A DNA stretch of 64,000 nt. It comes from Aliikangiella coralliicola. GTDB lineage: Bacteria > Pseudomonadota > Gammaproteobacteria > Enterobacterales > Kangiellaceae. Positions 1,692 to 55,946 of the stretch are shown in pieces (position 1 is the stretch's first letter; every line of letters begins with the position of its first letter). The stretch covers positions 62,001 to 126,000 of the forward strand of contig NZ_ML660171.1 in NCBI RefSeq assembly GCF_007004725.1, in the 5' to 3' direction. Both the position numbers and the translations under genes were made by a program. A model generated the notes under the pieces. It did not search any database. It saw only the letters and a list, made by a program, of their open reading frames with translations, and was not told where the DNA came from.

Positions 1692-2615
1692 ATGAAAACC
1701 TCCAACAAAATGACGACCTCCAAAAAAACAATGTATTTTACCAAAACATTTCTGCTGAGTGGATTGTTTATCAATAACGCATTTGCTGAAGTGCTAATTG
1801 GAACCGACCAGAGCAGCGCGAGCAGCACGGAAAATGAAATCGTTTCTATCTATAGCGCAAATCGCGGCACGAATGGTGGTGGAGACCAGAGTCTGCAATT
1901 GGGAGACATGATAACCGGTAGCAACGATAGCGATGTTTTAATTGGCGGCCTTGGTATCGATATTCTCTTTGGCGGTCTCGGCGACGATATTCTCATTGGC
2001 GGCACTGAAGATTTTAATGGGTTCAATCGTGATAGAGCATTTGGCGAAGAAGGGGATGATAGTTTTCTTTGGGCGCCAGGGGATGGTAATGATTTTTTTG
2101 ATGGCGGGCCTGGTACCGATGTTCTTTTTATGACCTTAATCGGTGAGTCGAAAGACTCAAACGGTAATACTGAACAAGCGCCTTTTTTCGCTGTTAGCCC
2201 GCCATCGCCTACCAATTTAAGAGATTTTGATGGCATTCATCTCAATGATCAAAATTTACCTGTAATCAATGTTCCTGCAGGACCGGGCTTTTGTGAAATT
2301 GTTGAGCAGGATGCGGAAAACAAAACAGCGTTGGAAGAGCTGGGTCTTGAGCACCTTATCAGGTTTGTTTTACGAGGACCTCGCGCTAACTTTGAATCAG
2401 AAGTAGCCGCAGATCCCAATCTGGACCCCGCGACGCTAGACGATGGGTTGAGGGTGGCGATTCACCTGAAAAATGTCGAGTTTCTTGTTTGTACTGGTAA
2501 AACTGCCGGCACTCAACAAATTTTCGATCTAAGGCAAGTACCTGCGCAAGAAGTCGACGCGTCACAACTTCCTTTACAGGCCTACCAGCTTCTTTCTGCT
2601 CCGATAGCAGACTAA
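1692..2615 (+). CDS. Secreted calcium-binding (RTX/hemolysin-type repeat) protein
   Basis: 307 residues with a Sec-type signal peptide (hydrophobic stretch, likely cleavage after AFA near residue 33). Residues about 75-150 carry short glycine/aspartate nonapeptide-like repeats (GGLGIDILFGGLGDDILIGG, then GGPGTDVLF), the calcium-binding beta-roll type. The C-terminal half (about 150-300) is not a family I recognise but is shared with the next gene: the FFAV-PP, DFDGIHL, GFC, DDGLRVA and KN-EFLVCT blocks recur. The GAGGAC ribosome site fits the ATG at 1692. Unlike classical type I exported RTX proteins it has an N-terminal signal peptide, so periplasmic or surface location is inferred. Function unknown. 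Confidence 0.8.
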   Translation: MKTSNKMTTSKKTMYFTKTFLLSGLFINNAFAEVLIGTDQSSASSTENEIVSIYSANRGTNGGGDQSLQLGDMITGSNDSDVLIGGLGIDILFGGLGDDILIGGTEDFNGFNRDRAFGEEGDDSFLWAPGDGNDFFDGGPGTDVLFMTLIGESKDSNGNTEQAPFFAVSPPSPTNLRDFDGIHLNDQNLPVINVPAGPGFCEIVEQDAENKTALEELGLEHLIRFVLRGPRANFESEVAADPNLDPATLDDGLRVAIHLKNVEFLVCTGKTAGTQQIFDLRQVPAQEVDASQLPLQAYQLLSAPIAD

Positions 2616-2669
2616 ATATTGTGACAAAAGAACCTGCTTAAAAATTGACAAAAAACCGGAGTTTATATC

Positions 2670-3440
2670 ATGAAAATTAATACGACAAATGACAAGCTTT
2701 TAAACAATTCTCAACCGCACTTCATCGCTCAAAAACAGCAAAGGAAACAGCAAAATGACCGTTTCTTTTTTCGTTCAACAGCACTGATTGCTGCTGTGTT
2801 GGGCGTCTTATTGACAGGTTGTAGTAGCGATAGCAGTTATAACGATGACAATGATATTGAGCCAGATCCTGCGCCAACACCTAAACAGTTTAAGCCAGTT
2901 GAAGGAACGGACACCAACCAGAAAAATCGTCCTTTGTTATCTGCTAACCCGGGGGGACCGGGTGGTTCACCAAACCAAAGTTTACGAGCTGGCGACGTTT
3001 TAATCGGTGACGAGCAAGATGATATTCTTATCGGTGGTTTGGGAGTTGATGTGCTAATGGGTTATGACGGTGATGACATTCTTATTGGCGGCACTGAAGA
3101 TTTTAATTCCAGTGTTAATGGTGATGGCAACGGATCTGACAATCGCGACAGAGCGTTTGGTCATAGTGGTAATGATGTTTTTATTTGGGCGCCGGGTGAT
3201 GGAAGCGATTTTTTTGATGGCGGAGAAGGGACAGATGTCATCATCTTCGGTGTACTTGGAGAATCCAGGGATGCCGACGGTAATACCGAAGGCGCCCCTT
3301 TCTTTGCGGTTAACCCGCCCAATGGCAATCCAGGCAGTCAGGATTTTGATGGCATCCATCTTGATGAGAACAATCAGCCCAGAGTTCGTGTGTCGGAGTC
3401 ACCGGGATTTTGCTCTGTTGTTGACGCGCTAGCCGCATAG
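2670..3440 (+). CDS. RTX-repeat lipoprotein, truncated by in-frame UAG
   Basis: A paralogue of the preceding gene, evidently a tandem duplicate. The N-terminal region has a hydrophobic stretch ending in LTGC (about residues 45-51), a lipobox, followed by a serine/aspartate linker, GG-x-G-D calcium-binding repeats (about 105-150) and the conserved block up to GFCSVVDALAA. It then ends at TAG (3438-3440) after 256 residues. The same frame continues with the homologous C-terminal domain (next entry), so the product lacks about 90 residues relative to its paralogue. Either a recent nonsense mutation or suppressed termination would explain this. Confidence 0.78.
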   Translation: MKINTTNDKLLNNSQPHFIAQKQQRKQQNDRFFFRSTALIAAVLGVLLTGCSSDSSYNDDNDIEPDPAPTPKQFKPVEGTDTNQKNRPLLSANPGGPGGSPNQSLRAGDVLIGDEQDDILIGGLGVDVLMGYDGDDILIGGTEDFNSSVNGDGNGSDNRDRAFGHSGNDVFIWAPGDGSDFFDGGEGTDVIIFGVLGESRDADGNTEGAPFFAVNPPNGNPGSQDFDGIHLDENNQPRVRVSESPGFCSVVDALAA

Positions 3441-22567: not shown

Positions 22568-23773
22568 TCAGCGTACATGAACAGTCTCCCAGTCGAACCC
22601 TCTAGCGTCATGATATTTGGCCGTCATTTGTGGGTTTTTGTGTCCCAACAAAGTGGAAGTATTCACGCCTTGTTTCTTATAAGTACGCTCAGCAAGAGAT
22701 CTTAGTTCATGGAATGTGGCCGGTGTATTTTCGCCCCAATCAATGTTGGACAAAGAGACAAGTTCGCTGAATTTTTTAGATAAGGTCTTCGGAGAAACTG
22801 GTGTACCTTTTCTAACCGTTCCATTACTTTTAGCATGGTGGATCAAGTTAACTGCGAACGAGTATATTTTACAACGCTCAACTGCTTCTCTAACCGACAC
22901 ATTGAAAACATTGTTTCTAAGCGCCAGGGGAATTCTGAGCATATTGCCGGTTTTTTGTTGGAATACGTGTAAATGGTCACCATCAATATACGAATAAGGT
23001 TTAGCGCGTTTATCTCCAGCTATTCTTTTTTGATAAAGTTTTTCCCAGTCTCTGCCTTTGCGAAAACGGAACTTCGTAATATCTTCTAGCCGTTGACCTG
23101 TAGTTATTGCCAGCCAAATACTATTGATTAACCAGGGTTGAAATCTCGGCCTGGTTACAGTGTTCAATGTTTGCAAAACTTGGTTGATTGACTCTTCAGT
23201 GAATCGAGCCCGTTTAATTACGATTGATTTTTTCTTGATCACATCTAGTGGGTTGGTTTCTGCTTCGCCTTCAGCGATAGCGGAACGAAAGAAATCATGT
23301 AAACCAACAATGATTTTTTGCGCCATACTTCGTTTATCATCATCGTAATAGGTGTTGAGAATACCTGTAATCTGTTTTGTGGTAATTGCCCTTAATAGTG
23401 TATCGCCGTGGAAAATGCGCAAAGGTTTGATGTGAGACTTGCGGCCATTGAAAGTGTTATATGAAATCTCACCACTTTTATATTGCTTTGTGAGTTCTGC
23501 GACGTAGTGCACTGCCCATTCTTCGACTGTTAGCTCCTGTTTGTCACTCGATAATAACAATTCCAGTTTTTGCTTTTCCAGCATTCCGTAAATCGCGACA
23601 TTCAGCATTTTTGCCCGATGCTTGGCTTTTGCAATATCAGGCCCCAAGCCTTTGAATTTTCCATCTCTTGGATCTTTGTATTGCGCGTAAACACGATTTG
23701 TTCTTTTATCTTTACTCAGGTAGAGATTTTCTATACCGTGATTGTTGAGCTTGTTTCGCTTCTTAGGAGACAC
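22568..23773 (-). CDS. int: Tyrosine-recombinase phage integrase
   Basis: 401 residues. The N-terminal arm-binding domain (about 1-60) is followed by a core-binding domain (about 83-180) and the catalytic domain (about 190-395). Catalytic residues are visible: Arg228 (TTGQRLED), Lys274 (QQKTG), His355-x-x-Arg358 (FHELR), His378 (LLGHKN) and Tyr387 (TAKYHDA). It integrates and excises the phage by site-specific recombination. Last gene of the leftward operon, overlapping xis by 11 bp as in lambda. Confidence 0.97.
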   Translation of the reverse strand: MSPKKRNKLNNHGIENLYLSKDKRTNRVYAQYKDPRDGKFKGLGPDIAKAKHRAKMLNVAIYGMLEKQKLELLLSSDKQELTVEEWAVHYVAELTKQYKSGEISYNTFNGRKSHIKPLRIFHGDTLLRAITTKQITGILNTYYDDDKRSMAQKIIVGLHDFFRSAIAEGEAETNPLDVIKKKSIVIKRARFTEESINQVLQTLNTVTRPRFQPWLINSIWLAITTGQRLEDITKFRFRKGRDWEKLYQKRIAGDKRAKPYSYIDGDHLHVFQQKTGNMLRIPLALRNNVFNVSVREAVERCKIYSFAVNLIHHAKSNGTVRKGTPVSPKTLSKKFSELVSLSNIDWGENTPATFHELRSLAERTYKKQGVNTSTLLGHKNPQMTAKYHDARGFDWETVHVR

Positions 23774-23990: not shown

Positions 23991-24389
23991 TCAATCACAT
24001 CCTCTTTCAATTCCGAGTCCATCCTCAGTGGTAAATTTTTTCCAATGTCTCCAGCCAGAAATAGGGCAGTGGAATCCCCATTCACGAACCTTTGGACCGG
24101 TTATAAAAATTGTCCAGGCTGGTCCCTTTACCAGTTCTAATCGGTGCGCCAGTTTTGCAGAGCGTATGATCGGGAGAAGTCGCGGAATGTGTCTAACGCT
24201 ATTGAAAGTGTGTTCAATGAGCTCACCTTTCAATAAGATTGAAAGACTCCACCAAGGGTGGTCATGAAGCGCACGATCATCATCTGAGCGATTAAAACAA
24301 TGCAGATATATGTTAAAAAAGCGATTACGGGGAATCACATACCAACGCTTTAAGTAATCGCCGCCTATTACCTGGTCTGGTTCTCTCAT
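23991..24389 (-). CDS. Phage cupin-like protein of unknown function
   Basis: 132 residues of a conserved phage type: LHCFNRSDDDRALHDHPWWSLSILLKGELIEH, then HRLELVKGPAWTIFITGPKVREWGFHC and a GWRHW end. The paired histidines and beta pattern suggest a small cupin-like fold (HDHPW as metal-site candidate), but no activity is known to me. Lies in the early leftward operon; its start overlaps the YopX-like stop by 4 bp (ATGA). Confidence 0.7.
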   Translation of the reverse strand: MREPDQVIGGDYLKRWYVIPRNRFFNIYLHCFNRSDDDRALHDHPWWSLSILLKGELIEHTFNSVRHIPRLLPIIRSAKLAHRLELVKGPAWTIFITGPKVREWGFHCPISGWRHWKKFTTEDGLGIERGCD

Positions 24390-25689: not shown

Positions 25690-25934
25690 GCTTCTACCTC
25701 ACGAGCTTCTTTTAATTCCTCTTCGAGTTCTGCGATTGTTTCTTCGAGCTGGATAATTTCGGATTTCTTTTCTTCTAAGAAAAATTCGAGCTGGTTGTTT
25801 TGCTCCTGAAGAGTTTCAACCGAACGAGTCGCGAATTCGAGTTCCTGAATAAGTTTCTTTTCCTGAGGTGTACCAAATATTTGTAAATGGTTTATTAGTT
25901 CATCAGGGGAATAGCAATCAGTGTTTACGTCCAT
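25686..25934 (-). CDS. Small coiled-coil phage protein
   Basis: 82 residues. The second half (about 38-80) is a clear coiled coil with heptad Leu/Ile and Glu runs (EKKSEIIQLEETIAELEEEL). No family recognised. It overlaps the methyltransferase start by 4 bp and lies 7 bp from the winged-helix gene, so it belongs to the early leftward operon. Confidence 0.65.
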   Translation of the reverse strand: MDVNTDCYSPDELINHLQIFGTPQEKKLIQELEFATRSVETLQEQNNQLEFFLEEKKSEIIQLEETIAELEEELKEAREVEA

Positions 25935-25941
25935 AGTGTGC

Positions 25942-26139
25942 TCAGTTAAAAATATCGATTTGTTTAGTTTCGTAATACTTGCCGCGCTGACCTTTTACTT
26001 TTGTTTCTTCCACAAAGCCGCCCATTAGTGCTGACTTCAGTTCACCTTTCACTTTGTTAACTGACATTCCTGTCTGCTTAGCTAACATTTGAGGCGTGTA
26101 CTTCATGCCTGGTCTCATTTGGTCGATGCTTGTTGTCAT
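25942..26139 (-). CDS. Small winged-helix DNA-binding protein
   Basis: 65 residues from ATG 26139, chosen over 26163 because AAGGTGAG sits 5 nt upstream. YTPQMLAKQTGMSVNKVKGELKSALMGGFVEE followed by GKYYE is the pattern of a helix-turn-helix with wing (MarR/IclR-like DNA-reading unit). It may regulate the early operon. Its ribosome site lies directly after a 17-bp hairpin (26159-26207), which could control its translation. Confidence 0.65.
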   Translation of the reverse strand: MTTSIDQMRPGMKYTPQMLAKQTGMSVNKVKGELKSALMGGFVEETKVKGQRGKYYETKQIDIFN

Positions 26140-26158
26140 GAGCTCACCTTTGTTAAGT

Positions 26159-26946
26159 CCCACCCTGGCTACCGACTCAAGGAACAGTTAGTCAGTAGTA
26201 GGGTGGGGGTCTACACTTATCAAAACTTTTAGAGCGAAGTACGGTTGATTAGTCCGTACTTCTAGCTAACTTTGCGTCCCTCCCGCGAGTATGCCTGCGG
26301 TAGCTGTTAGGGCTCATTGCGTGACAAGGTAATCAACTCCTTATCCATACTCCGCTCTAAAAGTTTTTAATCGCAACAAAGGCCGAACAGCAAACCTTTA
26401 TCACTACGAATTGAGAGAGTATTACCAGCTCTGTTCTATCTCTTAACTAACGGGCTCTCATCGTTTACACCCGTCGCCATCCTTTAGGCTCAGTTGACTA
26501 CAAATAAACTCGCGGCGAATAAATGTATTTGTAGTTAATCAACTTCATCACCTCTTCTCACTGTGGTATTCGTTGGGCCTCGCACCCATTCGGTCATCTT
26601 CTCAAGCTACCTCGCGCCTTTTGAGCTGCGCACAATGCGAGTACTAATCCATCATCAAAAGCTACTTTGCATGACTGCATAGGGATTCTTTTTGAGAAAG
26701 GCTCTGGTTCCCGTTTGATACTGCCGTCCCACTTTAAGCTGGCATTCCAGTCGGTGCTGGAGCGGGTTGAATTTTAAGTGCGTCCCCCTGCACTCAAAGC
26801 CTTTCTCAAAATTGGTGCAGACCTTCCAGCCTGCGCGGAGCTTGAACCAATGCTAAGCAATGTTTGGGCTCTAGGCGGGATCGTCTGTCTACGCGCCGCC
26901 TCGTTACTCGTAGACAAACAGACCGATTAAGCGCGTCACCCGCTTA
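26159..26946 (-). ncRNA. Large structured non-coding region (candidate ornate phage RNA)
   Basis: 790 bp between ssb and the winged-helix gene, without a credible protein frame on either strand but with dense inverted repeats. Main stems: TAAGCG/CGCTTA (26928-26946); an 11-bp bulged stem (26883-26923); a perfect 14-bp stem 26690-26703/26798-26811 with inner hairpins; CTTTTGA/TCAAAAG (26618-26661); a 14-bp bulged stem (26493-26543); ACGGG/CCCGT (26450-26474); AAAGG/CCTTT (26378-26399); a perfect 15-bp stem 26222-26236/26353-26367 enclosing an 8-bp hairpin (26237-26261) whose loop TTGATTA is complementary to 26330-26336 (pseudoknot); and a 17-bp stem (26159-26207). One mismatch in the last becomes a G-U pair only in minus-strand RNA. 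Strand follows from that and from operon direction. Confidence 0.6.
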
Positions 26947-26957
26947 CTACCTGCAGA

Positions 26958-27356
26958 CTAAAATGGAATATCGTCATCAAATTCGTTATCGATTGCACCG
27001 GCGATTTGTTGTTGCTGGTGCGTGTTATTTTTCATCGGGTCCGCGGTTGATTTGCTCACAAAATCCAAACTGTTAACCAGTAACTCTGGGGTATACTGTT
27101 TTTCGTTTCCTTTCATCCAAACTTCGATACTAAACTGGCCTGAAACGACAACTCTTGTACCAATTGTTAAATACTCTGTTAGTTTTTCTGCTCGGTTACC
27201 CAGTAGCTTGCATTTCAACCAAGATGTTTTTTCTCTTTCTCCGAAACCAGAAGTTACCGCTATAGGAAAGTCAGCGATGCATTTGCCGTTAGGCGTGTAG
27301 CGCTTCTCGCAATTGCGTCCGATATTTCCGCTAACCGTTAAAACATTTATTGCCAT
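26958..27356 (-). CDS. ssb: Single-stranded DNA-binding protein
   Basis: 132 residues: an OB-fold (about 1-105; opening INVLTVSGNIGRNCEKRYTPNGK, WLKCKLLGNRAEKLTEYLTIGTRV, FSIEVWMKG) and a short linker ending in the acidic tip DDDIPF that recruits partner proteins. It coats ssDNA during phage recombination and replication and probably works with the Rad52-type annealing protein upstream. It has its own AAAGGA site and is separated from the upstream genes by a GC-rich hairpin with T-run. Confidence 0.96.
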   Translation of the reverse strand: MAINVLTVSGNIGRNCEKRYTPNGKCIADFPIAVTSGFGEREKTSWLKCKLLGNRAEKLTEYLTIGTRVVVSGQFSIEVWMKGNEKQYTPELLVNSLDFVSKSTADPMKNNTHQQQQIAGAIDNEFDDDIPF

Positions 27357-27368
27357 TTACTTGTCCTT

Positions 27369-27404
27369 TAAAAAGCCCCGCACCCCGGGAAGAAAAGTGC
27401 GGGG
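27369..27404 (-). terminator. Intra-operon terminator/attenuator before ssb
   Basis: 8-bp stem CCCCGCAC (27376-27383) with GTGCGGGG (27397-27404); read on the minus strand it is followed by CTTTTTAAA, a typical intrinsic terminator. It lies within the leftward operon just before the ssb ribosome site, so passing it would need antitermination or it partially reduces downstream expression. Confidence 0.75.
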
Positions 27405-27594: not shown

Positions 27595-28089
27595 TTATTT
27601 AATCAGTAGAGAGCGTTTGCCTTTCGAAAGATGTGCACCTGGTATAGATTTACCTTCTTTCAAATCAGCTTTGAGTTTTGTTTTGTCGGCGCTTTTTTCA
27701 ATTTTCGTTTTCACGTAATCTTCTGGTAGGTCATCAATCTCGTCGATGGTGACAACGTCCATTGCTTTTCTTAATGTGATCCGAAATTCAGGGCATTCGA
27801 TTTTTTGAATGCCGCATTGCTCCATGTTTTCACGCAGGTAGTCTTTCATTCTTGCAACAAGCTTTTCTTTCGACTTACGACGAGCAGCAATTCTTTTCTC
27901 CGCGTCTTTCATCGCCTTAATATCCGCTTCGATATTTTGGAAAAAGCCTGATACAGCAATCGCTTTATCATTAAACTCGGTTTCAATTCCCGATAGCGTA
28001 TCGTTAATAATTTCCTCGTCTAACTCATCCATGTCTGCCATGGCTAGAAACGCGTCTTGATAGTCTTTCGATATTTTGTAGAGATTCAT
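27595..28089 (-). CDS. Gp157-like phage protein
   Basis: 164 residues, mostly helical: an N-terminal coiled-coil region (DELDEEIINDTLSGIETEFNDKA, IEADIKAMKDAEKRIAARRKSKEKLVARMKDYL, about 20-90) and a C-terminal DDLPEDYVKTKIEKSADKTKLKADLKEGKSIPGAHL segment, the signature of the siphovirus Gp157 family. The family is commonly found beside phage recombinases; its function is not settled. It directly abuts the Rad52-family gene. Confidence 0.85.
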   Translation of the reverse strand: MNLYKISKDYQDAFLAMADMDELDEEIINDTLSGIETEFNDKAIAVSGFFQNIEADIKAMKDAEKRIAARRKSKEKLVARMKDYLRENMEQCGIQKIECPEFRITLRKAMDVVTIDEIDDLPEDYVKTKIEKSADKTKLKADLKEGKSIPGAHLSKGKRSLLIK

Positions 28090-28542
28090 TTAAGCCACCT
28101 GTTTTTGTTTAGGTAATGCCCAGTCGGGCAGTATGGGTGGAGTTGTAAACTTTCCCCATTGGTCGATAGGGTAGTAACGATTGCCGTCTAGATAATAGAG
28201 ATAGCGTCCGATACCAAACTTAACTGCAGCCCGTTTAAACGCATCGGAGATAGCGCCTTTCTCACCCTCAACATTCGTGTCACCGGCACCGTCGCTTTTT
28301 GTGATCCATTCATCGCCAATTCGAATTGAGAGCTCGCAAATGAGTCGTCCTGAGGCAGTCTCAATATATTTGTCCTGCCAGTTGGCAAAACCGATTACAT
28401 CATCGAGACGCTTCATCACATTTCGCGCGTCGAGGTAAGCGAGTGCTGTCGCCTTATCTTTAGCTCTTGATTTGCGACCAATACGCCAGTGGATTTCGTT
28501 TGGCTTAAAGGGCTCTTTGAATTGATTAAGAATTATATCCAT
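28090..28542 (-). CDS. Rad52/22-family ssDNA-annealing recombinase
   Basis: 150 residues from ATG 28542, preferred over 28608 because GGAGG lies 9 nt upstream and the upstream part overlaps another gene. Signature blocks: KATALAYLDARNVMKRLDDVIGFANWQDKY (about 27-57), then VEGEKGAISDAFKRAAVKFGIGRYLYYL (about 90-118). It anneals complementary ssDNA during phage recombination and probably cooperates with SSB and the Gp157-like protein. No paired exonuclease was recognised nearby. Confidence 0.93.
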   Translation of the reverse strand: MDIILNQFKEPFKPNEIHWRIGRKSRAKDKATALAYLDARNVMKRLDDVIGFANWQDKYIETASGRLICELSIRIGDEWITKSDGAGDTNVEGEKGAISDAFKRAAVKFGIGRYLYYLDGNRYYPIDQWGKFTTPPILPDWALPKQKQVA

Positions 28543-28732
28543 GGCTAGACGCCTCCATTTGATGGTATTTTTTTCCGTACCAGTATTCGCACATATCAAA
28601 ATCAGCACCGGTTTGATAAGCGGATTCTCTGGCTTGATCTTCGGTTAACGCGCCATCAAACCAAAGCTCACCGATTTCTTTTTCTGCTTTGGCTTTGTCA
28701 AAAATATCAATTTTTTCTGCAGTGTTACTCAT
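28526..28732 (-). CDS. Small hypothetical phage protein
   Basis: 68 residues with a helical N-terminus (EKIDIFDKAKAEKEIGELWFDG) and a MCEYWYGKKYHQME end. Its 3' end overlaps the Rad52-type start by 17 bp, suggesting coupled translation. No family recognised. Confidence 0.6.
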   Translation of the reverse strand: MSNTAEKIDIFDKAKAEKEIGELWFDGALTEDQARESAYQTGADFDMCEYWYGKKYHQMEASSHGYNS

Positions 28733-29411: not shown

Positions 29412-29605
29412 TTAGCTCTCCCGCTGGATGATTTAATAATTGCTTACTAAACTGATAGTGAGCTTCTCTATATGAGATAAAATAATTGGCATATCGCATA
29501 CAATTATGTTTTGCCTCATGCTAGACTGCTTTTAACGCTTTTTTGGTAGATTCTTTGTTGAAAATAGCGTTAAACATAAGTTGGTGTAAGTGACAATGTA
29601 GATTT

Positions 29606-29656
29606 AATGTATACCTTAATGGTATACTTTGTCAATACCTTAATGGTATATATTTG
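29606..29656. promoter_or_regulatory. pL promoter with two operator palindromes (OL region)
   Basis: Two near-perfect palindromes: GTATACC-TTAAT-GGTATAC (29609-29627) and ATACC-TTAAT-GGTAT (29635-29649), centres 24 bp apart. On the minus strand a perfect TTGACA (29630-29635) and a TACATT (29606-29611) are 18 bp apart with the first operator in the spacer: pL. On the plus strand TTGTCA (29629-29634) and TATTTG (29651-29656) are 16 bp apart over the second operator, a possible rightward promoter for the cassette at 29721. The operators match those beside the repressor gene. Confidence 0.82.
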
Positions 29657-29720
29657 TGCTTGTTTTCTATGTTGGCTTTGATTGCACTTTTCTGTGGTAA
29701 GTAAAACGGGAGGTTTATTT

Positions 29721-29834
29721 ATGAAATTTCAAAAGTATTTGGATATGTGCCCTGGTAGCGATCCACCGCCAGATGATCCACCGAACGATCCAAACGATAA
29801 TAAGGGCAAGGATAACGGTAATATCGTTAAATGA
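29721..29834 (+). CDS. 37-residue Pro/Asp-rich peptide
   Basis: ATG 29721 with a strong GGGAGG site; TGA at 29832-29834 overlaps the next ATG (ATGA). The peptide starts MKFQKYLDMCPGSDPPP and continues with repeated PNDPNDN and a Lys/Asn end; it is very hydrophilic and has no signal. The ribosome site and coupled stop/start make coding likely. Function unknown; it leads a plus-strand cassette located between OL and the repressor gene, where lambda carries rex genes. Confidence 0.6.
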   Translation: MKFQKYLDMCPGSDPPPDDPPNDPNDNKGKDNGNIVK

Positions 29835-31001: not shown

Positions 31002-31622
31002 TTAAGATCGTGCGGTAGTATGTGACCTTTCGTGTTCGTTTCTTAACTTCCCAAATTCATTCAATAAATCAATATATATCTCTTCAATAATTTCCGCATA
31101 TAGTTTTCTTGCTTCCTCGTTTGATATATCAACACCAGGTTCATCTTTAACTTTTTGAAGTGTTTCGTGCGCTAAAACGCCTGCTTGTACCATTAATTCT
31201 TTCTTAGGGTCTTCTGATTTGTAGTAAATGGAGTCGATGGTGTAAGGATCTCCGTTGTAAAGCTTGGTAAGCATTCTGGAAAATTGCTCAGGAGTAGAAG
31301 GTTCCTTTAAATATTTCTCAGTTTTTTGGGCGAATTTTACTGCTAACAGCATACGGGAGTTGTTTAACTCCTGATTGTCTTTAATGGATTCTTCTGGCAT
31401 ACCATCAAGTGAAAATTGGATCAGGTCCAAAGATTCTTCAATTTTTCTAGCCATATCGTCGCTGATAGGGCGATTAGGGCGTTTACCAGCAAATTGCCCA
31501 GTGTATGTGGGATCTTGATCTAATAGATCTGCAAGTCTTTTCTGGAAACCGTAACCTTTCGATTCGATGATCTTTCTTAGGTTCTTGTGCCTTATTTTTT
31601 GTAGTTCTGTAAATTTTCTCAT
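31002..31622 (-). CDS. CI-like phage repressor (HTH, no peptidase domain)
   Basis: 206 residues. The N-terminal helix-turn-helix (about 10-65) reads RHKNLRKIIESKGYGFQKRLADLLDQDPTYTGQFAGKRPNRPISDDMARKIEESL, the layout of CI-type repressors. The C-terminal 130 residues are helical and acidic and lack the Ser/Lys S24 peptidase motifs, so RecA-stimulated self-cleavage is not expected and induction must work otherwise. It is divergent to the Cro-like gene across the OR-like region. The -10 box sits 6 nt before the ATG, implying a leaderless mRNA. Confidence 0.87.
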   Translation of the reverse strand: MRKFTELQKIRHKNLRKIIESKGYGFQKRLADLLDQDPTYTGQFAGKRPNRPISDDMARKIEESLDLIQFSLDGMPEESIKDNQELNNSRMLLAVKFAQKTEKYLKEPSTPEQFSRMLTKLYNGDPYTIDSIYYKSEDPKKELMVQAGVLAHETLQKVKDEPGVDISNEEARKLYAEIIEEIYIDLLNEFGKLRNEHERSHTTARS

Positions 31623-41271: not shown

Positions 41272-44200
41272 GTGCCAATAAGTATCCTACAACAAGCACT
41301 CGGGTTAGGGGATAACGACACTCTCCCGACTGGCTTACCAATAGCTGGACCAGATAGAGTATTAGCCGGCGCAGTATTGTGTGAAGGAACAGACCTGGCG
41401 GGATTAACAGGGATAACGATTGGTGGCGTCCAGGCAACAATTCATACCGAACTTTTAGCCGGTACGATTGATGTCGTTGGTTTTTACATCAAAGAAGCTG
41501 ATATACCAAACATCACGGATACCTCGATTGTCTTCCAAGGGGTAACGGTTGCGAGTTCAAGCATCGTCATTATTTCGATTTTATTTGCAGGTGTGGACCA
41601 AACGACTACAGTCACTGATTTTGCCGTCGGTGCTCAAAACTCCACACAGGACGCAACCTACGTTCTAGATGAAATTGAAAATGGAATGGCAATTGCGTTC
41701 GTAGGTTGTTCAAAGGCGACCGGAACTGCCTGGACATTCGGAAGTTATACGCAAGTCGCGGGTGATTCTGCGCCTCAGTGGACACAGGGAACAAATACAT
41801 CAGGCGTTGCGGCGATTAAAGTATTAACTGCTGATGCGACGAACGTAAGCAACACAATTCAAAGCGGGTTAGCCACTGATAAAGTGGGCTGGTTCGCAAT
41901 GGTCTTAAATGCGGCGCCAGGAGGGGGTGATACGACAGCGCCAGTCTTAACTAACCCGACAGCGAGCACTGTAACTGCAGATGGTGTTACACCACAGGCA
42001 ATCACAGATGAAGGTAACGGCACGGCTTATATAGTTGTTGTTCCCGATGGCGATGTTCCAAGTATTGCGCAAATCAAAGCAGGCCAACAAAGCAACGGAA
42101 CGGCGGCAATAGCAGCTGAGAATCTAGCAATATTATCAACTGGCGTTATCAGTTTTACACCAGTTACCGGCTTATCAGAATCCACTAACTACGAACTCTT
42201 TTTTGTCCACACTGATGCCGCTGCTAATGACAGTCTGGCAGAAACCGTTGGATTCACAACTGGTGGTTCTGGCGGTGGAGGGGGAGGCGGTGGAACCAGT
42301 AACATCGGCGGCATTAACTTAGCGGCTTATACGCCGGTCGGAATAGTTCAAGAATTCCCTCACCCTGATGGCAATAGCTCGGGTGTTGGTGTTGATATTG
42401 AAAACGGCAGGATAGGTGTCATTCGTAACGGCGCCAGAGAATTACATGAGTATGCGATTGGAGACTACAGTACAACCATTCGAACCGTAAGTATCAATGG
42501 TCTCGATAATGGTTCAGACTCCGAATCTATTACTTATATGGGTAATGGAGAAATTGCAGTCGGTACCGAAGACGGCGGCGCCTATAAAATCCATATTCTG
42601 GATTTGCCGACCGGCACAGTTGATATTTCAATTGGTGCAAAACAATCTTTGACTCTCGCAGAACCAGGTATCGATAACAATAGTGGGTTAGAGGGATTAA
42701 CTTACGACAAAGTAAATAAGGTATTTTATGGGGTAGGTGAGGGACAGCAGGTTAATACGCCAAGAAAATTTTTCAAAGTTATCAGACCGACGAATACAAC
42801 AACCGATTACACATACACCGATCCAGAATTAGTTGTCACCGAGCCTTTTGATCCCGAAGTCACATTTGCTATCCTGGGGGCGACCGGAGAACAGTTTGAT
42901 TTAAGTGGATGCTCATTCGACGATAAAACCGGACGAATAATTATTCAAAGTCATACAGGCGGCAAAGCCATTGAGGTCGATGTTGAGACAGGGGTCTATT
43001 ATTCGGAGGTCGACACTTCTGTCAATCCACAGGCTGAAGGGGTAGAAATCTTACCGGATCGCAGCATTATCATTATTAGTGAAGGTCGGCATTACCTCCA
43101 GTACATTCCACCGCCCGCACCGGTGATTAATCAGCCGCCTCACGCAACAGTAGCCCTGGGCAACACATTTTCGTATACACCGACTCTCTCAGCTGGCTCC
43201 GATGTTTTCTGGTTCAAGGAGTACGGTCCAGATAGTATGCAGGTTAATCCAGAAACAGGGGAAATTACCTGGGATACAACGGGATTCCCAAGGGGGCAGG
43301 GTATTCCGATTGCAATCGGTTGTTCAAACGAATGGGGAGAAGACACCAAATGGTTTGTGCTCCACGTTGATAACACCGGCACGTCAAAACTTGTTGTACT
43401 TGGTACAGATACCACATCATCTAATATTCGAATTGGTGCACTTGAAGCGATTTTTGCCAGCGGCGATACATTAGCTGTTCCCGGTGGGCTTTATTATGCG
43501 TCGGTATCAGCTAATGGAAGTTTTGAGAATTCTTTCGCTGATAGTTTTGGCGGCGATATACCTGCCGGCACTGCTAATCAACTAACAACAATATGCGGTG
43601 CCGGTGAGGTTATTGTTGACTCGAGTCCTCATGATGCGATCCCTAGACAAGATGAATGTTTAGAAATTCTGGCTAACCAGGCGACGATTAAATCATTTGT
43701 TAAATTCGCTTCAATGGAATTCACTGGCGCAAACCGCCAGGCGATATTAAACGCCGCTGCGAGTAACGTACTCGAATTAGTGGGTGCAACTGATAGCGGG
43801 TACGCTCAGAATCCAACAACTTTCACAGAAGCTGATGCTTCCTATGGCTCAGTAGCTTCAGGTTACATGCAGGGTAATGGTTCGGTTTATGAGCACTGTT
43901 TTGCGTTCGGACAATTTCGGTATGGCCTGCAATTTGGGAATGTGATTTCAGATACTTTGATGTCACGTTGTCTAGTGCGCCCAGATGAATATCACGGTGA
44001 CCAACCTCGTGGAGCAATTACCCATTATTCAACCGAAGGAAGCGGCGTATTCTCAAACCTTGTTGTTGACGGTGACCAGGAACACCTATCGCCGTTTTAC
44101 TCAAATTATGCAGGGGCTTTTGCTTTCCCAGCGACGGGTAACGAAGCATTCCCTAATAACCAGGTATTTCATGGCAACCTAAGCCTCAATACCCATATGG

Positions 44201-45939
44201 TGCCATTCACTGCTGATGGTTCTGCAGGCACAAGTATTATCAATGCAAGTCATTTCGTGGTCATCGACTCCACCAATACGATAACGCCACAAACAGGCGC
44301 AACAAGCCCGGCAATCATTAATTCAAATTCAGTTCTTAATCTGGACAACGCCAGCTTTGATAAAAATAGCACCTGGAATGATGAGGTCATGGCGGGTTCA
44401 AATGGATTTATCAGAGCGGGTGATTCAACTAACGATATTACGATTACTAAATCAATATTCAGCCAGGGCGGTTGGAGTGTGTCAGCGACAATTGATGTCG
44501 GACCACTACTAAATGCAACCGGCGGAACGTCCGGCAGTGCCTTCACTGATAACAATGTTTATGATTTTAAAGGCACAATCGACGCCAGCGGTGCTTATAC
44601 GGTTAGCGGAACCATAACGACCGACCCCCATGCGAACGGCTGGGATTATCCGACAAGAATTGAAGAAGGTTCACCACTGGCGCTATCTGGCCACGGTGCA
44701 GACCTGACGAAATTTAAATGTCCATCACATGTAATGCCAGGCGATCCAGGTTGGCAGACAGCAACCAACAGATGGGCATGGCCATACCCGGCAGAGACTC
44801 GTATTCGAGAAAGAATGCGTCAGTATGGGAAAACGAATCTACCAGTCAGAAACCCGGTTCACACTCAAAACCCCACGCAGTTTGATGGAGTGATTTCGGG
44901 TGCCAGAGGTTTTTGCGCTGATGGAGAATCATTATCTGATTATATTTGGGGATACTTTGGCAGAACGGTACCACCTTTAAGAGTCGCAGCCTCAACAACT
45001 GCAGCAGATGAAATCACATTCAGGATAGGAAGATACCGTTCGGATAGAGGTTATCGAATAACAAAATTTAACGTCTACGAAACTGGCGACATGGTAAATC
45101 CAGTTTTAAGTTTCTCGGGATTGAAAGGGGTTCTAACAGGCGTTGCAGATGGAAATTATGAGTATGTAATTCGCGCGGTCGATGCAACTAAAATATCGGC
45201 CTTTGGTGCAAACGAATCTGGTGAGTCCGGCAACTCGGATAAAATAACTATAAATGTCGGACCCGCCGGACCAGACACAACACCTAACGCTTTTTCTTTC
45301 ATCGACCAGACCGACATAGCGTTAAGTACTCAGGTTGAATCTAATGTAATCACAGTCTCAGGTATCGACACACCAGCATCAATTTCAATTACATCATCAG
45401 CCGGCATGGAATACCGGATTAATGCCGGGGCTTACACTACCACGGCGGGCACAGTAAACAATGGTGACACCGTTCAATTACGAGTCACGAGCTCTGCAGC
45501 AAACAGCACGTCAGTTAATGGAACGCTTAATATCGGGGGAGTGGCAGACCAATGGGATGTAACAACTATTGGCGCCGCAGATACAACACCAGACGCATTT
45601 ACATTCACTGACCAAACCGGTGTTAACTTATCGAGCCAGATTATTTCAGATGAAATTACGATTGCAGGCATAAACGCAGTGGCATCAATTAGTATCACGG
45701 GAGCAGGTGAATTCAGTATTGACGGCGGCGCTTACACGAACGTCGCAACAACCATTAACAATGGCCAAACGGTAAGACTCAGACAAACAAGCTCCACTAT
45801 CAACAGCACGGAAACAACAGTCACTCTCGACGTCGGCGGAGTAACCGATATTTGGTCGGTTACAACGCTACCTGCAAGTGCCGCAGAACTCGACGAGTAC
45901 ACACCAGGTATATCAATCAAAATAGGAATCAGCTTATGA
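41272..45939 (+). CDS. Giant phage spike/adhesin with beta-propeller and beta-helix
   Basis: 1555 residues from a GTG start (AGGGAT site). In order: an N-terminal virion- or surface-anchor region (about 1-220), a fibronectin-like domain (about 222-340), a run of nine Gly in ten residues, a beta-propeller of the SdiA-regulated type (about 346-620: SDSESITYMGNGEIAVGTEDG, GLEGLTYDKVNKVFYGVGEG), an Ig-like domain (about 625-705), a long region with right-handed beta-helix character (about 710-1200) and two C-terminal repeats of about 88 residues (each starting DTTP-AF-F-DQT). Probably the receptor-binding spike. Unusually it sits upstream of the terminase. The stop overlaps the spike-base gene by 4 bp. 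Confidence 0.75.
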   Translation: MPISILQQALGLGDNDTLPTGLPIAGPDRVLAGAVLCEGTDLAGLTGITIGGVQATIHTELLAGTIDVVGFYIKEADIPNITDTSIVFQGVTVASSSIVIISILFAGVDQTTTVTDFAVGAQNSTQDATYVLDEIENGMAIAFVGCSKATGTAWTFGSYTQVAGDSAPQWTQGTNTSGVAAIKVLTADATNVSNTIQSGLATDKVGWFAMVLNAAPGGGDTTAPVLTNPTASTVTADGVTPQAITDEGNGTAYIVVVPDGDVPSIAQIKAGQQSNGTAAIAAENLAILSTGVISFTPVTGLSESTNYELFFVHTDAAANDSLAETVGFTTGGSGGGGGGGGTSNIGGINLAAYTPVGIVQEFPHPDGNSSGVGVDIENGRIGVIRNGARELHEYAIGDYSTTIRTVSINGLDNGSDSESITYMGNGEIAVGTEDGGAYKIHILDLPTGTVDISIGAKQSLTLAEPGIDNNSGLEGLTYDKVNKVFYGVGEGQQVNTPRKFFKVIRPTNTTTDYTYTDPELVVTEPFDPEVTFAILGATGEQFDLSGCSFDDKTGRIIIQSHTGGKAIEVDVETGVYYSEVDTSVNPQAEGVEILPDRSIIIISEGRHYLQYIPPPAPVINQPPHATVALGNTFSYTPTLSAGSDVFWFKEYGPDSMQVNPETGEITWDTTGFPRGQGIPIAIGCSNEWGEDTKWFVLHVDNTGTSKLVVLGTDTTSSNIRIGALEAIFASGDTLAVPGGLYYASVSANGSFENSFADSFGGDIPAGTANQLTTICGAGEVIVDSSPHDAIPRQDECLEILANQATIKSFVKFASMEFTGANRQAILNAAASNVLELVGATDSGYAQNPTTFTEADASYGSVASGYMQGNGSVYEHCFAFGQFRYGLQFGNVISDTLMSRCLVRPDEYHGDQPRGAITHYSTEGSGVFSNLVVDGDQEHLSPFYSNYAGAFAFPATGNEAFPNNQVFHGNLSLNTHMVPFTADGSAGTSIINASHFVVIDSTNTITPQTGATSPAIINSNSVLNLDNASFDKNSTWNDEVMAGSNGFIRAGDSTNDITITKSIFSQGGWSVSATIDVGPLLNATGGTSGSAFTDNNVYDFKGTIDASGAYTVSGTITTDPHANGWDYPTRIEEGSPLALSGHGADLTKFKCPSHVMPGDPGWQTATNRWAWPYPAETRIRERMRQYGKTNLPVRNPVHTQNPTQFDGVISGARGFCADGESLSDYIWGYFGRTVPPLRVAASTTAADEITFRIGRYRSDRGYRITKFNVYETGDMVNPVLSFSGLKGVLTGVADGNYEYVIRAVDATKISAFGANESGESGNSDKITINVGPAGPDTTPNAFSFIDQTDIALSTQVESNVITVSGIDTPASISITSSAGMEYRINAGAYTTTAGTVNNGDTVQLRVTSSAANSTSVNGTLNIGGVADQWDVTTIGAADTTPDAFTFTDQTGVNLSSQIISDEITIAGINAVASISITGAGEFSIDGGAYTNVATTINNGQTVRLRQTSSTINSTETTVTLDVGGVTDIWSVTTLPASAAELDEYTPGISIKIGISL

Positions 45940-53218: not shown

Positions 53219-53421
53219 TGTTTGATAATGTTACTCAAGAGCAAAAAGCTGCAATCAAAGCCTTGCAATCGAAACCAGAAATGAGGCTTTTGCTAGACGC
53301 TATAGAGCTGGCGCAAAAGGAAACTGATCTCGCGTTAAGGAAAGTTGATGCCGAAAACTTCCAAAAACTTCAGGGAAAAGCGCTTGCTCTCCAACATGTA
53401 TCCAGTTTTTTGACAACTTAA
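53218..53421 (+). CDS. Small helical protein after portal
   Basis: 67 residues from ATG 53218 (AGGAGG 7 nt upstream, TGATG coupling with the portal stop). Helical, charged: TQEQKAAIKALQSKPEMRLLLDAIELAQKETDLALRKVDAENFQKLQGKALALQHV. Probably a minor head or assembly factor; no family recognised. Confidence 0.65.
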   Translation: MFDNVTQEQKAAIKALQSKPEMRLLLDAIELAQKETDLALRKVDAENFQKLQGKALALQHVSSFLTT

Positions 53422-53539
53422 TTTCAACAAATAGAATCTTCAGTAACGCAATACTGCGTTTATCGAATCACAACGGTTAATCTCGACGAAATGTTCGCGA
53501 CATCTAATCGAACCATTACGACTTGTACTCGGAGCAAAT

Positions 53540-54463
53540 ATGGGTTTACCAAAGCACGTCGTAGCTCAACAAAAAGCTGTTGAATCCTACGAAGCAAAGA
53601 TTAAGAAAGAGCAAGAGCCGGTTAAGGAACCTGAAAAAAAGGAACCTGAAGCGAAAGAACCGGAACAAGCTGAAAAAACACCAACTCAGGTTAAGACAGA
53701 CGATAAATCTGACCCTCGTCACGCGGACGTGGAGTACTGGAAAAATCGCTGCAATGTGATGCTCGGCAAATACAATGCCGAAACCAGACAGCTTAATGCA
53801 AAAATTCAGTCCCTTGAAAAACAGGTTGAATTGTTGAGCAAAAAACCTGAATCGAGCGAATTAATTAGTCCCGACAAAAAGACAGAATTTGGCGAATACG
53901 CCGATTTGGTTGAAGAGACAATCAGCAAAACTCAACAGGAAACCAATCAAAAACTAGCGGAACAGCAAGCAACAATAGATTCAATGAATGCACAAAACGC
54001 TGCAAATGCAGAGCAAACATTCATCGAAAAACTGAGCGCACAAGTTCCCGATTGGCAGCGAATTAACGCAAGTGATGAGTTTAATGACTGGCTTGACCAG
54101 GTCGATCCGTTAAGTGGCCATGACTACCGCACTTTACTGCAAGAAGCAGATAGAAATCAGGATATTAATCGCGTGGTTTTCTTTTTCAATAAATTTGGTG
54201 AATCAGGCAAGCAATCAGCTTCAACAGACAATGAAGTTAGCGAGAACGCTAAAGATAATGAGTCATTGTCTAACGAATCTGTGCTGCCTGAACAACGTCA
54301 AGGTGGGAATCAAAACGATCCACATGATGGTTATATGACCAGACAGGATATTGATACTTTTTACAAAGATGTTGCACGTGGTAAGTACAGAGGTCGAGAA
54401 GATGAAGTTGATGCTATGGAACAAAAAATTGCCCAGGCATCGAAACACGGTCGAATCATTTAA
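53540..54463 (+). CDS. Scaffolding protein
   Basis: 307 residues, helical and hydrophilic: a Lys/Glu/Pro-rich N-terminus (about 20-60), coiled coils (about 75-105 and 130-160) and a C-terminal block with NDPHDGYMTRQDIDTFYKDVARGKYRGREDEVDAMEQKIAQA (about 258-300), the coat-binding end typical of P22-like scaffolds. It lies between portal and coat genes, the usual place. The 118-bp gap before it holds only a possible promoter/leader, nothing else seen. Confidence 0.82.
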   Translation: MGLPKHVVAQQKAVESYEAKIKKEQEPVKEPEKKEPEAKEPEQAEKTPTQVKTDDKSDPRHADVEYWKNRCNVMLGKYNAETRQLNAKIQSLEKQVELLSKKPESSELISPDKKTEFGEYADLVEETISKTQQETNQKLAEQQATIDSMNAQNAANAEQTFIEKLSAQVPDWQRINASDEFNDWLDQVDPLSGHDYRTLLQEADRNQDINRVVFFFNKFGESGKQSASTDNEVSENAKDNESLSNESVLPEQRQGGNQNDPHDGYMTRQDIDTFYKDVARGKYRGREDEVDAMEQKIAQASKHGRII

Positions 54464-54509
54464 ACCGAAATAAAACGAAAGCCTGGCCATAGAATAAAGG
54501 TTATCCAAT

Positions 54510-55445
54510 ATGGCAGGTCCAAATAGAGATCCCGGCTGGCCGGATATTAGCTCAACGAGTGCCAGCAAGTTTATCCCACAGATTTGGAGTGGGAAGTTAG
54601 TCACCAAGTTTTATGCAACAACCATGTTCGCGCAAATTGCGAACACTGATTACGAAGGCGAAATCAAAGCGCTAGGTGATACCGTAATCATCCGAACCGT
54701 ACCAAATATTACTATCAGTGATTATGTTATTGGTGCCGGATTAACTTACCAGAAACCAACAAGCCCGTCGGTCGAACTATCGATCGATAAAGCCAAGTCG
54801 TTTGCATTTGAGTGCAATGACATTGAGACCCATCAATCTGATTTACAGTTGATGAATGATTGGTCGAATGATGCTACCGAACAGATGCGTATCGTCATCG
54901 ATACCGATATTTTGTCAAATATCTATGTCGATGCTGATGTTGCTAACTCAGGCCAAACAGCAGGTAAAATTTCCGGTTCTTTTGATCTCGGTGCAGTAGG
55001 TGGTAATTCGGTTCAGTTGACTAAAGCCAACATTATCGACTTCTTAGTCGATGTCGGCACGGTTATGGATGAACAGAATCTTCCTGACTCTGAACGATGG
55101 ATCGGACTACCTTCCTGGGCTTGCGGCATGATCAAAAAGTCCGATCTAAAAGACGCGAGTATTGCCGGTGATGCGAAATCTATTTTGCGTACTGGCAATA
55201 TCGGAATGATTGACCGTTTGCACATTTACCGTAATAACAATATTGCGACTGCAGTTGATGGTGCAAACACTGTTTATCACTCAGTTGCTGGTCACAAATC
55301 GGCGCTTACCTTCGCGTCTCAAATGGTCAAAATGGAAGATGTTGCTAATCCATTTGATTTTGGTCGACTAGTTCGCGGCTTGAACGTTTACGGCTACAAG
55401 GTAATAAAGCCTGAGTCTTTACTTCACTGTGTAATCCGTCGGTAA
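54510..55445 (+). CDS. Major capsid (coat) protein
   Basis: 311 residues, placed directly after the scaffold. Contains IWSGKLVTKFYATTMFAQIANTDYEGEIKALGDTVIIRTVPNITI (about 25-70), the NFVDVGTVMDEQNLPDSERWIGLPSWACGMI stretch (about 185-215) and the RLHIYRNNNI and FGRLVRGLNVYGYKVIKPESLLHCVI ending, the HK97-fold coat pattern of short-tailed phages. No procapsid protease domain is fused. Followed by a strong terminator, as is usual for the most abundant product. Confidence 0.9.
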   Translation: MAGPNRDPGWPDISSTSASKFIPQIWSGKLVTKFYATTMFAQIANTDYEGEIKALGDTVIIRTVPNITISDYVIGAGLTYQKPTSPSVELSIDKAKSFAFECNDIETHQSDLQLMNDWSNDATEQMRIVIDTDILSNIYVDADVANSGQTAGKISGSFDLGAVGGNSVQLTKANIIDFLVDVGTVMDEQNLPDSERWIGLPSWACGMIKKSDLKDASIAGDAKSILRTGNIGMIDRLHIYRNNNIATAVDGANTVYHSVAGHKSALTFASQMVKMEDVANPFDFGRLVRGLNVYGYKVIKPESLLHCVIRR

Positions 55446-55455
55446 TTGTACATTT

Positions 55456-55480
55456 CCCCATCTTCTGGATGGGGATTTTT
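55456..55480 (+). terminator. Rho-independent terminator after the coat gene
   Basis: Perfect stem CCCCATC (55456-55462)/GATGGGG (55468-55474) with a 5-nt loop and ATTTTT run. It limits downstream expression relative to the coat gene. Confidence 0.92.
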
Positions 55481-55505
55481 CGTTTTTTAAAATAGGTAAT
55501 TTCAA

Positions 55506-55946
55506 ATGACTAAGTCAAAATCAAAGACCGCTGATAAGAAAGTTTCTGATGCAGCAGAAGACTTTTTGAAAGAGCAAGAAGAAGCGCTTGATGCACGAGC
55601 AAAGTTGCTTGATGAGCAGGAAAAAGCAATCGGATCCGAAAAGGAAAAAGTCACAGCTGAACGTAAAGCGCTGGAAGATGAAAAAGCAAGAGTTCAGGAA
55701 GAACAAGCACTGTTAAATACTGAAAGAAACGCTTTGCAACAGGCTAGAGCAGCACTGGAAATGGAACGTGATGCATTGGAAAAAGGTAAACAACACACAC
55801 CATTGCTTTCTGATGATCCTGACTTTGTTCCGCCTCCGTATCTTAAGTGTGTGAAAACAGGTCGTTTCTTTGCGTATACGCCAGCGTTAGCTAAGCAGGG
55901 TGCACGATTTGTTGCGGCCACTGCGGAAGAAGTAGCTGCAGGCTAA
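55506..55946 (+). CDS. Coiled-coil virion-assembly protein
   Basis: 146 residues. Residues about 15-98 are a single Lys/Glu/Ala-rich coiled coil (DAAEDFLKEQEEALDARAKLLDEQEKA through ALEKGKQHT); residues about 100-146 form a small domain with PPYLKCVKTGRFFAYTPALAKQGARFVAAT. No family recognised; position between coat and adaptors suggests a head-completion or head-fibre role. Confidence 0.65.
   Translation: MTKSKSKTADKKVSDAAEDFLKEQEEALDARAKLLDEQEKAIGSEKEKVTAERKALEDEKARVQEEQALLNTERNALQQARAALEMERDALEKGKQHTPLLSDDPDFVPPPYLKCVKTGRFFAYTPALAKQGARFVAATAEEVAAG

Follow-up and report, generated by a model that had tools for sequence, protein, structure and literature searches.

A stretch of ~800 nt on the minus strand of a prophage (positions 26159 to 26958), flanked by ssb and a small winged-helix-like gene, is probably the gene of a structured noncoding RNA of that length, produced within the leftward early transcript. 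On the predicted folds, the best reading is a large structured phage RNA of the same kind as GOLLD and ROOL but outside those families, and so far present in a single copy. Positions throughout are those of the window, which is the whole 64-kb stretch of DNA analyzed.

Locus and predicted architecture

The region from 26159 to 26946 was inspected together with its surroundings on both strands, and the neighboring genes were all found to run leftward (Table 1). The original prediction had placed one border at 26946; this was corrected, as the structure begins at 26958, where the ssb stop codon ends, while the far end at 26159 was kept. The predicted structure occupies the gap from this stop codon to just short of the next ribosome site, for which the 19 nt that separate the terminal hairpin from the downstream ATG leave room enough. 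The GC content was 48.6% in the stretch and 40.8% in the flanking operon. The downstream gene had been labeled winged-helix, but only weak profile matches were obtained, some of them to regulators: the PHROG matches of its 81-aa piece were weak and mixed, the best being to a tail protein (E 0.0025), followed by regulators.

In a consensus scan, a terminator-like hairpin was located before ssb, so that transcription into ssb and the candidate RNA may need antitermination. Nine terminator-like sites were counted in the region, compared with a mean of 6.1 in shuffled sequences, while promoter-like sites were rarer than in shuffles (8 versus 13.5), the closest upstream one listed on the minus strand being at 29635. 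This site, with a 10/12 match, falls inside a 415-nt gap (29416 to 29830) that lacks any ORF of at least 55 aa and is flanked by an early gene running leftward and an ORF running rightward; the gap is perhaps an operator region. Elsewhere in the early operon, the gene at 23991 to 24389 matched the PHROG "cysteine dioxygenase" with an E value of 9.4e-50, yet no Pfam family at E ≤0.1, and is an odd neighbor for an excisionase and a methyltransferase.

A prophage record of 58,025 bases in IMG/VR was identical to the window throughout the compared part; the record stems from this genome or one extremely close to it and is uninformative about evolution. The window covers ~41 kb of the 58 kb that IMG/VR assigns to the prophage. 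At 41272 to 45939, the prophage also carries a 1,555-aa ORF with segments that, by eye, seem to be repeated.

Table 1. Predicted features of the candidate RNA, with neighboring genes and sites
Feature	Positions	Strand or direction	Remarks
Whole candidate RNA	26159..26958	-	From last base of ssb stop codon to terminal hairpin; ~800 nt
Closing helix, 7 bp	26958-26952/26215-26209 (span 26209..26958)	-	GUCUGCA/UGUAGAC; encloses all domains (~750 nt); mean pair probability 0.97
5' domain	26565..26951	-	z -3.63, 0/100 shuffles
5' domain helices	26951-26948/26568-26565, 26941-26938/26578-26575, 26935-26928/26588-26581, 26926-26921/26595-26590	-	
12-bp hairpin within 5' domain	26882..26920	-	z -3.98, 0/300 shuffles
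7-bp hairpin	26817..26834	-	GGAA tetraloop; predicted fold
17-bp stem closing branched subdomain	26690..26811; 26811-26795/26706-26690	-	One G-U; z -4.38, 0/300 shuffles; inside alone z -0.27
Central domain	26560-26412	-	z -1.49, 21/300 shuffles, not beyond chance
15-bp stem, 4-nt bulge	26492..26544; 26544-26526/26506-26492	-	6 + 9 bp; inside central domain
12-bp hairpin	26373..26404	-	Five G-U pairs; z -3.47 minus (0/300 shuffles), -0.28 plus; stable as minus-strand RNA only
Three-way-junction domain	26222..26367	-	z -5.13, 0/300 shuffles; plus equal (-5.20); inside alone z +0.31
Three-way-junction parts	26367-26354/26235-26222 (basal); 26352-26346/26293-26287 (arm)	-	With hairpin B
Hairpin A	26323..26345	-	7 bp; 9-nt loop AGUUGAUUA
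Hairpin B	26236..26262	-	9 bp; 9-nt loop ACUAAUCAA, complementary to loop A over 7 bp
Terminal hairpin	26159..26207; 26207-26190/26177-26159	-	17 bp, one small internal loop; z -4.39, 0/300 shuffles
Gene in repressor's place	31002-31622	Leftward	No Pfam match; small early genes come next
Rad52-type annealing gene	28090-28608	Leftward	phrog_1097 and PF04098
Gp157 gene	27595-28089	Leftward	
Intrinsic-terminator-like site	27376..27404	-	With T run; between early genes and ssb; consensus scan only
ssb (upstream gene)	26958..27356	-	phrog_44, E 2.6e-29; stop codon touches closing helix
Winged-helix-like small gene (downstream)	25942..26139	-	Start read at ATG 26139, preceded by AAAGGTGAG
Further downstream genes, in order		Leftward	Small gene (weak coiled-coil-like matches), DNA methyltransferase, YopX-like gene, "cysteine dioxygenase" PHROG gene, excisionase, integrase
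Integrase	22568-23773	Leftward	

At least ten inverted repeats had been reported first; the minimum free energy (MFE) fold contained 33 helices of at least 4 pairs, and a repeat finder returned 5 inverted pairs of at least 11 nt. The perfect 14- and 15-bp stems were recovered as the basal stem of the three-way junction (14 bp, or 15 with the next pair) and as 14 perfect pairs within the stem closing the branched subdomain, and a 17-bp terminal stem was again seen just ahead of the next ribosome site. Only one of two reported long stems with a 4-nt bulge was identified, in the central domain. The GGAA tetraloop in the 5' part is of the GNRA type. The terminal hairpin, by its predicted fold and position, likely represents the 3' end or a processing site.

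A loop complementary to a distant 7-mer had been proposed to form a pseudoknot. The 7-bp complementarity is present, but a loop-loop pair between two hairpins with 9-nt loops describes it better, that is, a possible contact between two arms of the three-way junction, either within one molecule or between two. When hairpins with stems of at least 6 and loops of 5 to 14 were considered, a loop pair of at least 7 bp occurred in 7 of 1,000 shuffles and was absent on the plus strand, although this pair was chosen for scrutiny after the sequence had been seen. Hairpin A appeared in the MEA structure and hairpin B in the MFE structure, but neither plain structure contained both; forcing A alongside B put the domain 0.8 kcal/mol above its MFE, the gain from the loop-loop pair not being counted. 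Under a rule demanding both hairpins in one MFE or MEA structure, the native score of 4 was ordinary among shuffles. AGUUGAUUA occurs once more, from 26544, and this copy could rival hairpin A for loop B.

Folding strength and strand

The 800 nt of the minus strand gave an MFE of -278.8 kcal/mol, against a mean of -240.4 (SD 8.0) for 100 dinucleotide shuffles, none of which was as low (z -4.80). For the plus strand, z was -3.32, with 1 of 100 shuffles as low. A run of 826 nt with 20 shuffles returned z values of -5.49 (minus) and -2.15 (plus), and a 40-shuffle run returned -4.36 and -3.39, respectively. Among 158 segments of 800 nt (79 places on both strands, covering nearly the entire 64 kb), the minus strand of the stretch ranked first with a z of -5.44 by pooled SD, the runner-up scoring -4.24. 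Five of the six 800-nt segment strands from 53359 to 55758 were also among the eight best folded, with z values from -3.5 to -4.2. At a scale of 400 nt, 26001 to 26400 on the minus strand ranked 4th of 318 (z -4.0), behind both strands of a segment with a strong terminator and one other segment, while 26401 to 26800 on the same strand scored +1.6, where the cut breaks long helices.

The two best ungapped helices scored 20.0 and 15.5, compared with a top score of 12.0 in 30 shuffles, by which measure the other three (11.5, 9.5, and 9.0) were individually within chance. After both long-stem domains were removed, the rest still folded better than all 100 shuffles (z -2.74), and five separate stems or domains each beat all 300 shuffles on the minus strand. 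As sequence features, the stems are genuine. Several interior parts folded no better than chance, including 26690 to 26412 (z +0.69) and the inner 5' part (z -0.41) on the minus strand; the finer pairing predicted inside several domains is therefore a guess, to be taken as provisional.

The preference for the minus strand in the original prediction was reproduced as a modest one: in helices chosen without regard to strand, 5 G-U and 2 A-C were counted, a small number. The plus strand still beat 99 of 100 shuffles, and the contrast in the full MFE structures was not strong (31 of 249 pairs were G-U on the minus strand and 24 of 240 on the plus). The junction domain and the terminal hairpin folded equally well on both strands. 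The hairpin at 26373 to 26404 and the loop-loop pair were found only on the minus strand, which is the direction of the operon.

Coding capacity, known RNA families, and homologues

The absence of a credible protein frame was confirmed. The ORFs lying entirely within the stretch encode 47 aa (26774 to 26917, minus) and 50 aa (26778 to 26930, plus), with none above 50 aa, and the longest run free of stops is 66 codons. Twelve stop-to-stop pieces of at least 40 aa overlap the stretch; of the 10 that were run against Pfam, none scored over the cutoff (best, DUF4210, E 0.044). Nine of these 10, along with the piece from the downstream gene, were searched against PHROGs, where no internal piece matched a family below E 0.4 (best, E 0.42). 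Given this lack of Pfam and PHROG family matches among the pieces searched, a hidden or decayed protein gene was rejected.

Rfam 15, with 4,227 families, was searched at the gathering threshold over the window and at E ≤10 over 25900 to 27100, and no match was obtained in either case. Group I and II introns and HEARO, which we take to be among these families, accordingly gave no covariance-model match at E ≤10 in 25900 to 27100, and neither did OLE. Rfam contains profiles for GOLLD, ROOL, and OLE, as stated in the description of these RNAs (PMC12286853). The covariance-model search for GOLLD, ROOL, OLE, and HEARO that had been suggested as a check thus ended without a match even at E ≤10, and the candidate is not a recognizable GOLLD, ROOL, OLE, or other catalogued RNA. 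As for other identities, no tRNA or tmRNA was found in the window; an RNA antisense to the prophage was rejected, as no 13-mer is shared with or complementary to the rest of the window; and a CsrA/RsmA sponge was rejected with 13 GGA in 800 nt, against ~16 expected from base frequencies (an estimate). Among the titles that literature searches listed, none was on this element.

No homologue was obtained by DNA comparison, by covariance models built from the single sequence, or through neighboring proteins in the collections searched, which returned only the locus itself and weak hits resembling chance. The models, each built from this sequence alone, represented the 3' third (R1) and the 5' domain (R2). 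Since single-sequence models miss diverged relatives, the result means that near relatives were not found in the searched parts, not that the element is unique in nature. The genome sets overlap and include the window's own genome, and counts are not additive.

DNA searches of 99 genomes of relatives (own included) returned only the own copy, and those of phages and plasmids yielded only a single hit, in a phage (E 3), where 21 nt match within a frame of 552 codons. In 198 related genomes, R1 gave one other hit (E 0.024), which lies within an apparently OmpA-like frame of 241 aa; R1 gave no homologue in 369 genomes of the class, 398 of the phylum, 50 viral or phage records, or the best 80 of 322 ssb loci collected from viral contigs with a six-sequence alignment. 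In five Gp157 loci from genome contigs, its single hit (E 1.5) was taken as chance, as were three hits of R2 (E 0.93 to 3.6) in the best 80 of the 322 ssb loci; R2 found no homologue in the 198 genomes of relatives. Searched without the alignment, ssb recovered only its own copy in viral contigs; in genome contigs, none was found. The winged-helix-like gene likewise recovered only itself in viral contigs, nothing in phages, and, in 247 genomes, itself and one hit within a frame of 780 aa (E 9.9e-4). Searching with the terminase yielded 18 loci in viral contigs, its own and 17 at 37 to 59%, but its own only in seven genomes of the genus. The ERF family was found in 2 of the 198 genomes, and both loci were then searched with covariance models.

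Scans of viral contigs for patterns of 16 to 17 bases returned 7, 16, and 1 stretches, the own locus included. Nineteen of the 21 other stretches fell in frames of at least 60 codons, one lay at a locus end, and one had no listed start-to-stop ORF; none matched R1. A two-loop pattern scan of viral contigs gave 82 stretches, and among the matches listed, the 79 others had no R1 match. The same two loops at similar spacing occurred in 83 places (loci L125 and later), but stems of at least 5 on both were seen in just two, both of them copies of this locus.

Seven ORF-free gaps of ssb loci were folded. Those directly after ssb in two loci (L035 and L037) folded weakly (z -1.8 to -2.9), and the gap after ssb in mEp021 contains a 174-aa ORF. 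The gap in L082 scored -4.1 and -5.8 and was taken for an attachment site because it follows an integrase gene and has a tRNA- or tmRNA-like 3' end. In L069, from IMG/VR record 3300025109, an ORF-free gap (2468 to 3017) folded more stably than shuffles whichever strand was taken (z -3.8 and -4.4); by eye, long stems on its minus strand interleave like a large pseudoknot, and it had no Rfam match at the gathering threshold.

Relation to known large RNAs and competing explanations

As an ORF-less stretch of several hundred nucleotides folding beyond chance, the candidate corresponds to a large structured phage RNA in kind, not in family. GOLLD and ROOL are described as occurring in phages and prophages, often close to tRNA islands, as forming RNA-only cages, and as having no assigned function (PMC12286853). 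The resemblance to them claimed originally holds in kind only, that is, in a length of ~800 nt, a prophage location, many helices, and a possible loop-loop contact; the lack of an Rfam match and of a tRNA in the window (~41 of 58 kb of prophage) and the position in an early operon after ssb set the candidate apart. GOLLD, as described, is phage- or prophage-borne with an elaborate fold and loop contacts and assembles into a 14-mer cage (PMC12286853); its length of ~800 nt or above is matched by the 800 nt of the predicted structure. ROOL is likewise a large prophage-borne RNA with a complex fold, closed into a nanocage by kissing loops, of which the candidate has one possible pair, but the ROOL described has 659 nt (PMC12286853). 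The candidate shares with OLE the character of a large, ornate bacterial RNA but has no Rfam match. To our knowledge, OLE has not been described as a phage RNA.

Phage ICP1 produces a noncoding transcript of ~800 nt, described as its most abundant, from a 1-kb gap without ORFs, and its authors compared the length with those of GOLLD and ROOL (PMC7567579). The gap was taken to be that between ORF139 and ORF140 of NC_015157 (L143, 10098 to 11108). It had no Rfam match reaching the gathering score and no sequence similarity to the candidate beyond chance; when R1 was run on 1,401 bases there with its filters off, the top match (5.9 bits, E 0.033) ended over ORF140 and was taken as noise. Different cuts and strands folded with z values of -2.69, -1.32, and -2.46, weaker than the candidate. 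The ICP1 gap lies beside a lysis cluster and its transcript is reported as demonstrated (PMC7567579), whereas the candidate follows ssb and its transcription is predicted. ICP1 may thus serve as an earlier example of a large phage RNA missing from the catalogues and also as a caution, as folding energy alone hardly singles it out. The ICP1 gap may deserve an RNA family of its own.

The main rival, which we consider unlikely, is a cis-acting element between cistrons. The stretch would be a structured leader of the downstream genes (winged-helix-like, coiled-coil-like small gene, methyltransferase, YopX, xis, and int), setting read-through or retention of the early transcript via RNase III, Rho, or ribosome access, in analogy to the retroregulation of int in phage lambda. 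A location inside the operon that ends just before the next ribosome site is consistent with such a role, and so are the excisionase and integrase genes downstream and the terminator-like site ahead of ssb. However, the cis elements of this sort known to us are far smaller than ~800 nt with many closed domains, and the predicted closing helix draws both ends together, which suggests a self-contained RNA.

It is less plausible still that the stretch is decayed or junk DNA, left over from a gene or mobile element now lost, with a few long inverted repeats by chance. Such a remnant would account for the lack of relatives in the searched collections and for interior parts that fold no better than chance, but not for five separate stems or domains that each exceed 300 of 300 shuffles; moreover, the frame pieces match no family, and phage early operons are usually tightly packed. 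A DNA-level element, in which the inverted repeats would work at the level of single- or double-stranded DNA as a replication origin, packaging site, or recombination site, appears very improbable: ssb and a Rad52-type annealing gene are near, and both strands beat most shuffles, equally so in the junction domain and the terminal hairpin, but the minus strand folds better overall, one hairpin and the loop-loop pair are confined to minus-strand RNA, and in place of a direct-repeat array there is one two-copy 12-mer, so that the single-stranded origin or packaging region raised earlier as an alternative found little support.

Under the favored reading as an RNA gene, the candidate RNA would be made along with the leftward early operon transcript. 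Cutting in or near the 17-bp terminal hairpin, for which RNase III would be the natural candidate, could free the RNA while the downstream gene kept its own ribosome site, and the closing helix would join the RNA ends. The RNA might then act in trans as a compact particle, possibly oligomeric via its loops as GOLLD and ROOL are, with a role early in lytic growth as our guess. A more far-reaching proposal, which we advance only tentatively, is that the candidate, located in the early recombination operon of a temperate phage, represents a new class among the large ornate RNAs, with no relation to GOLLD, ROOL, or OLE. Its ends would be closed by a helix starting in the ssb stop codon and its three-way junction locked, or its molecules paired, by 9-nt kissing loops; it would be made at the onset of lytic growth and assemble without protein.

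The large ornate RNAs known to date are few, and no function has been established for the phage ones. If the proposal is correct, an unrelated RNA found in another genomic context would point to repeated origins of such RNAs, and the position beside recombination genes would offer a first handle on what they do.
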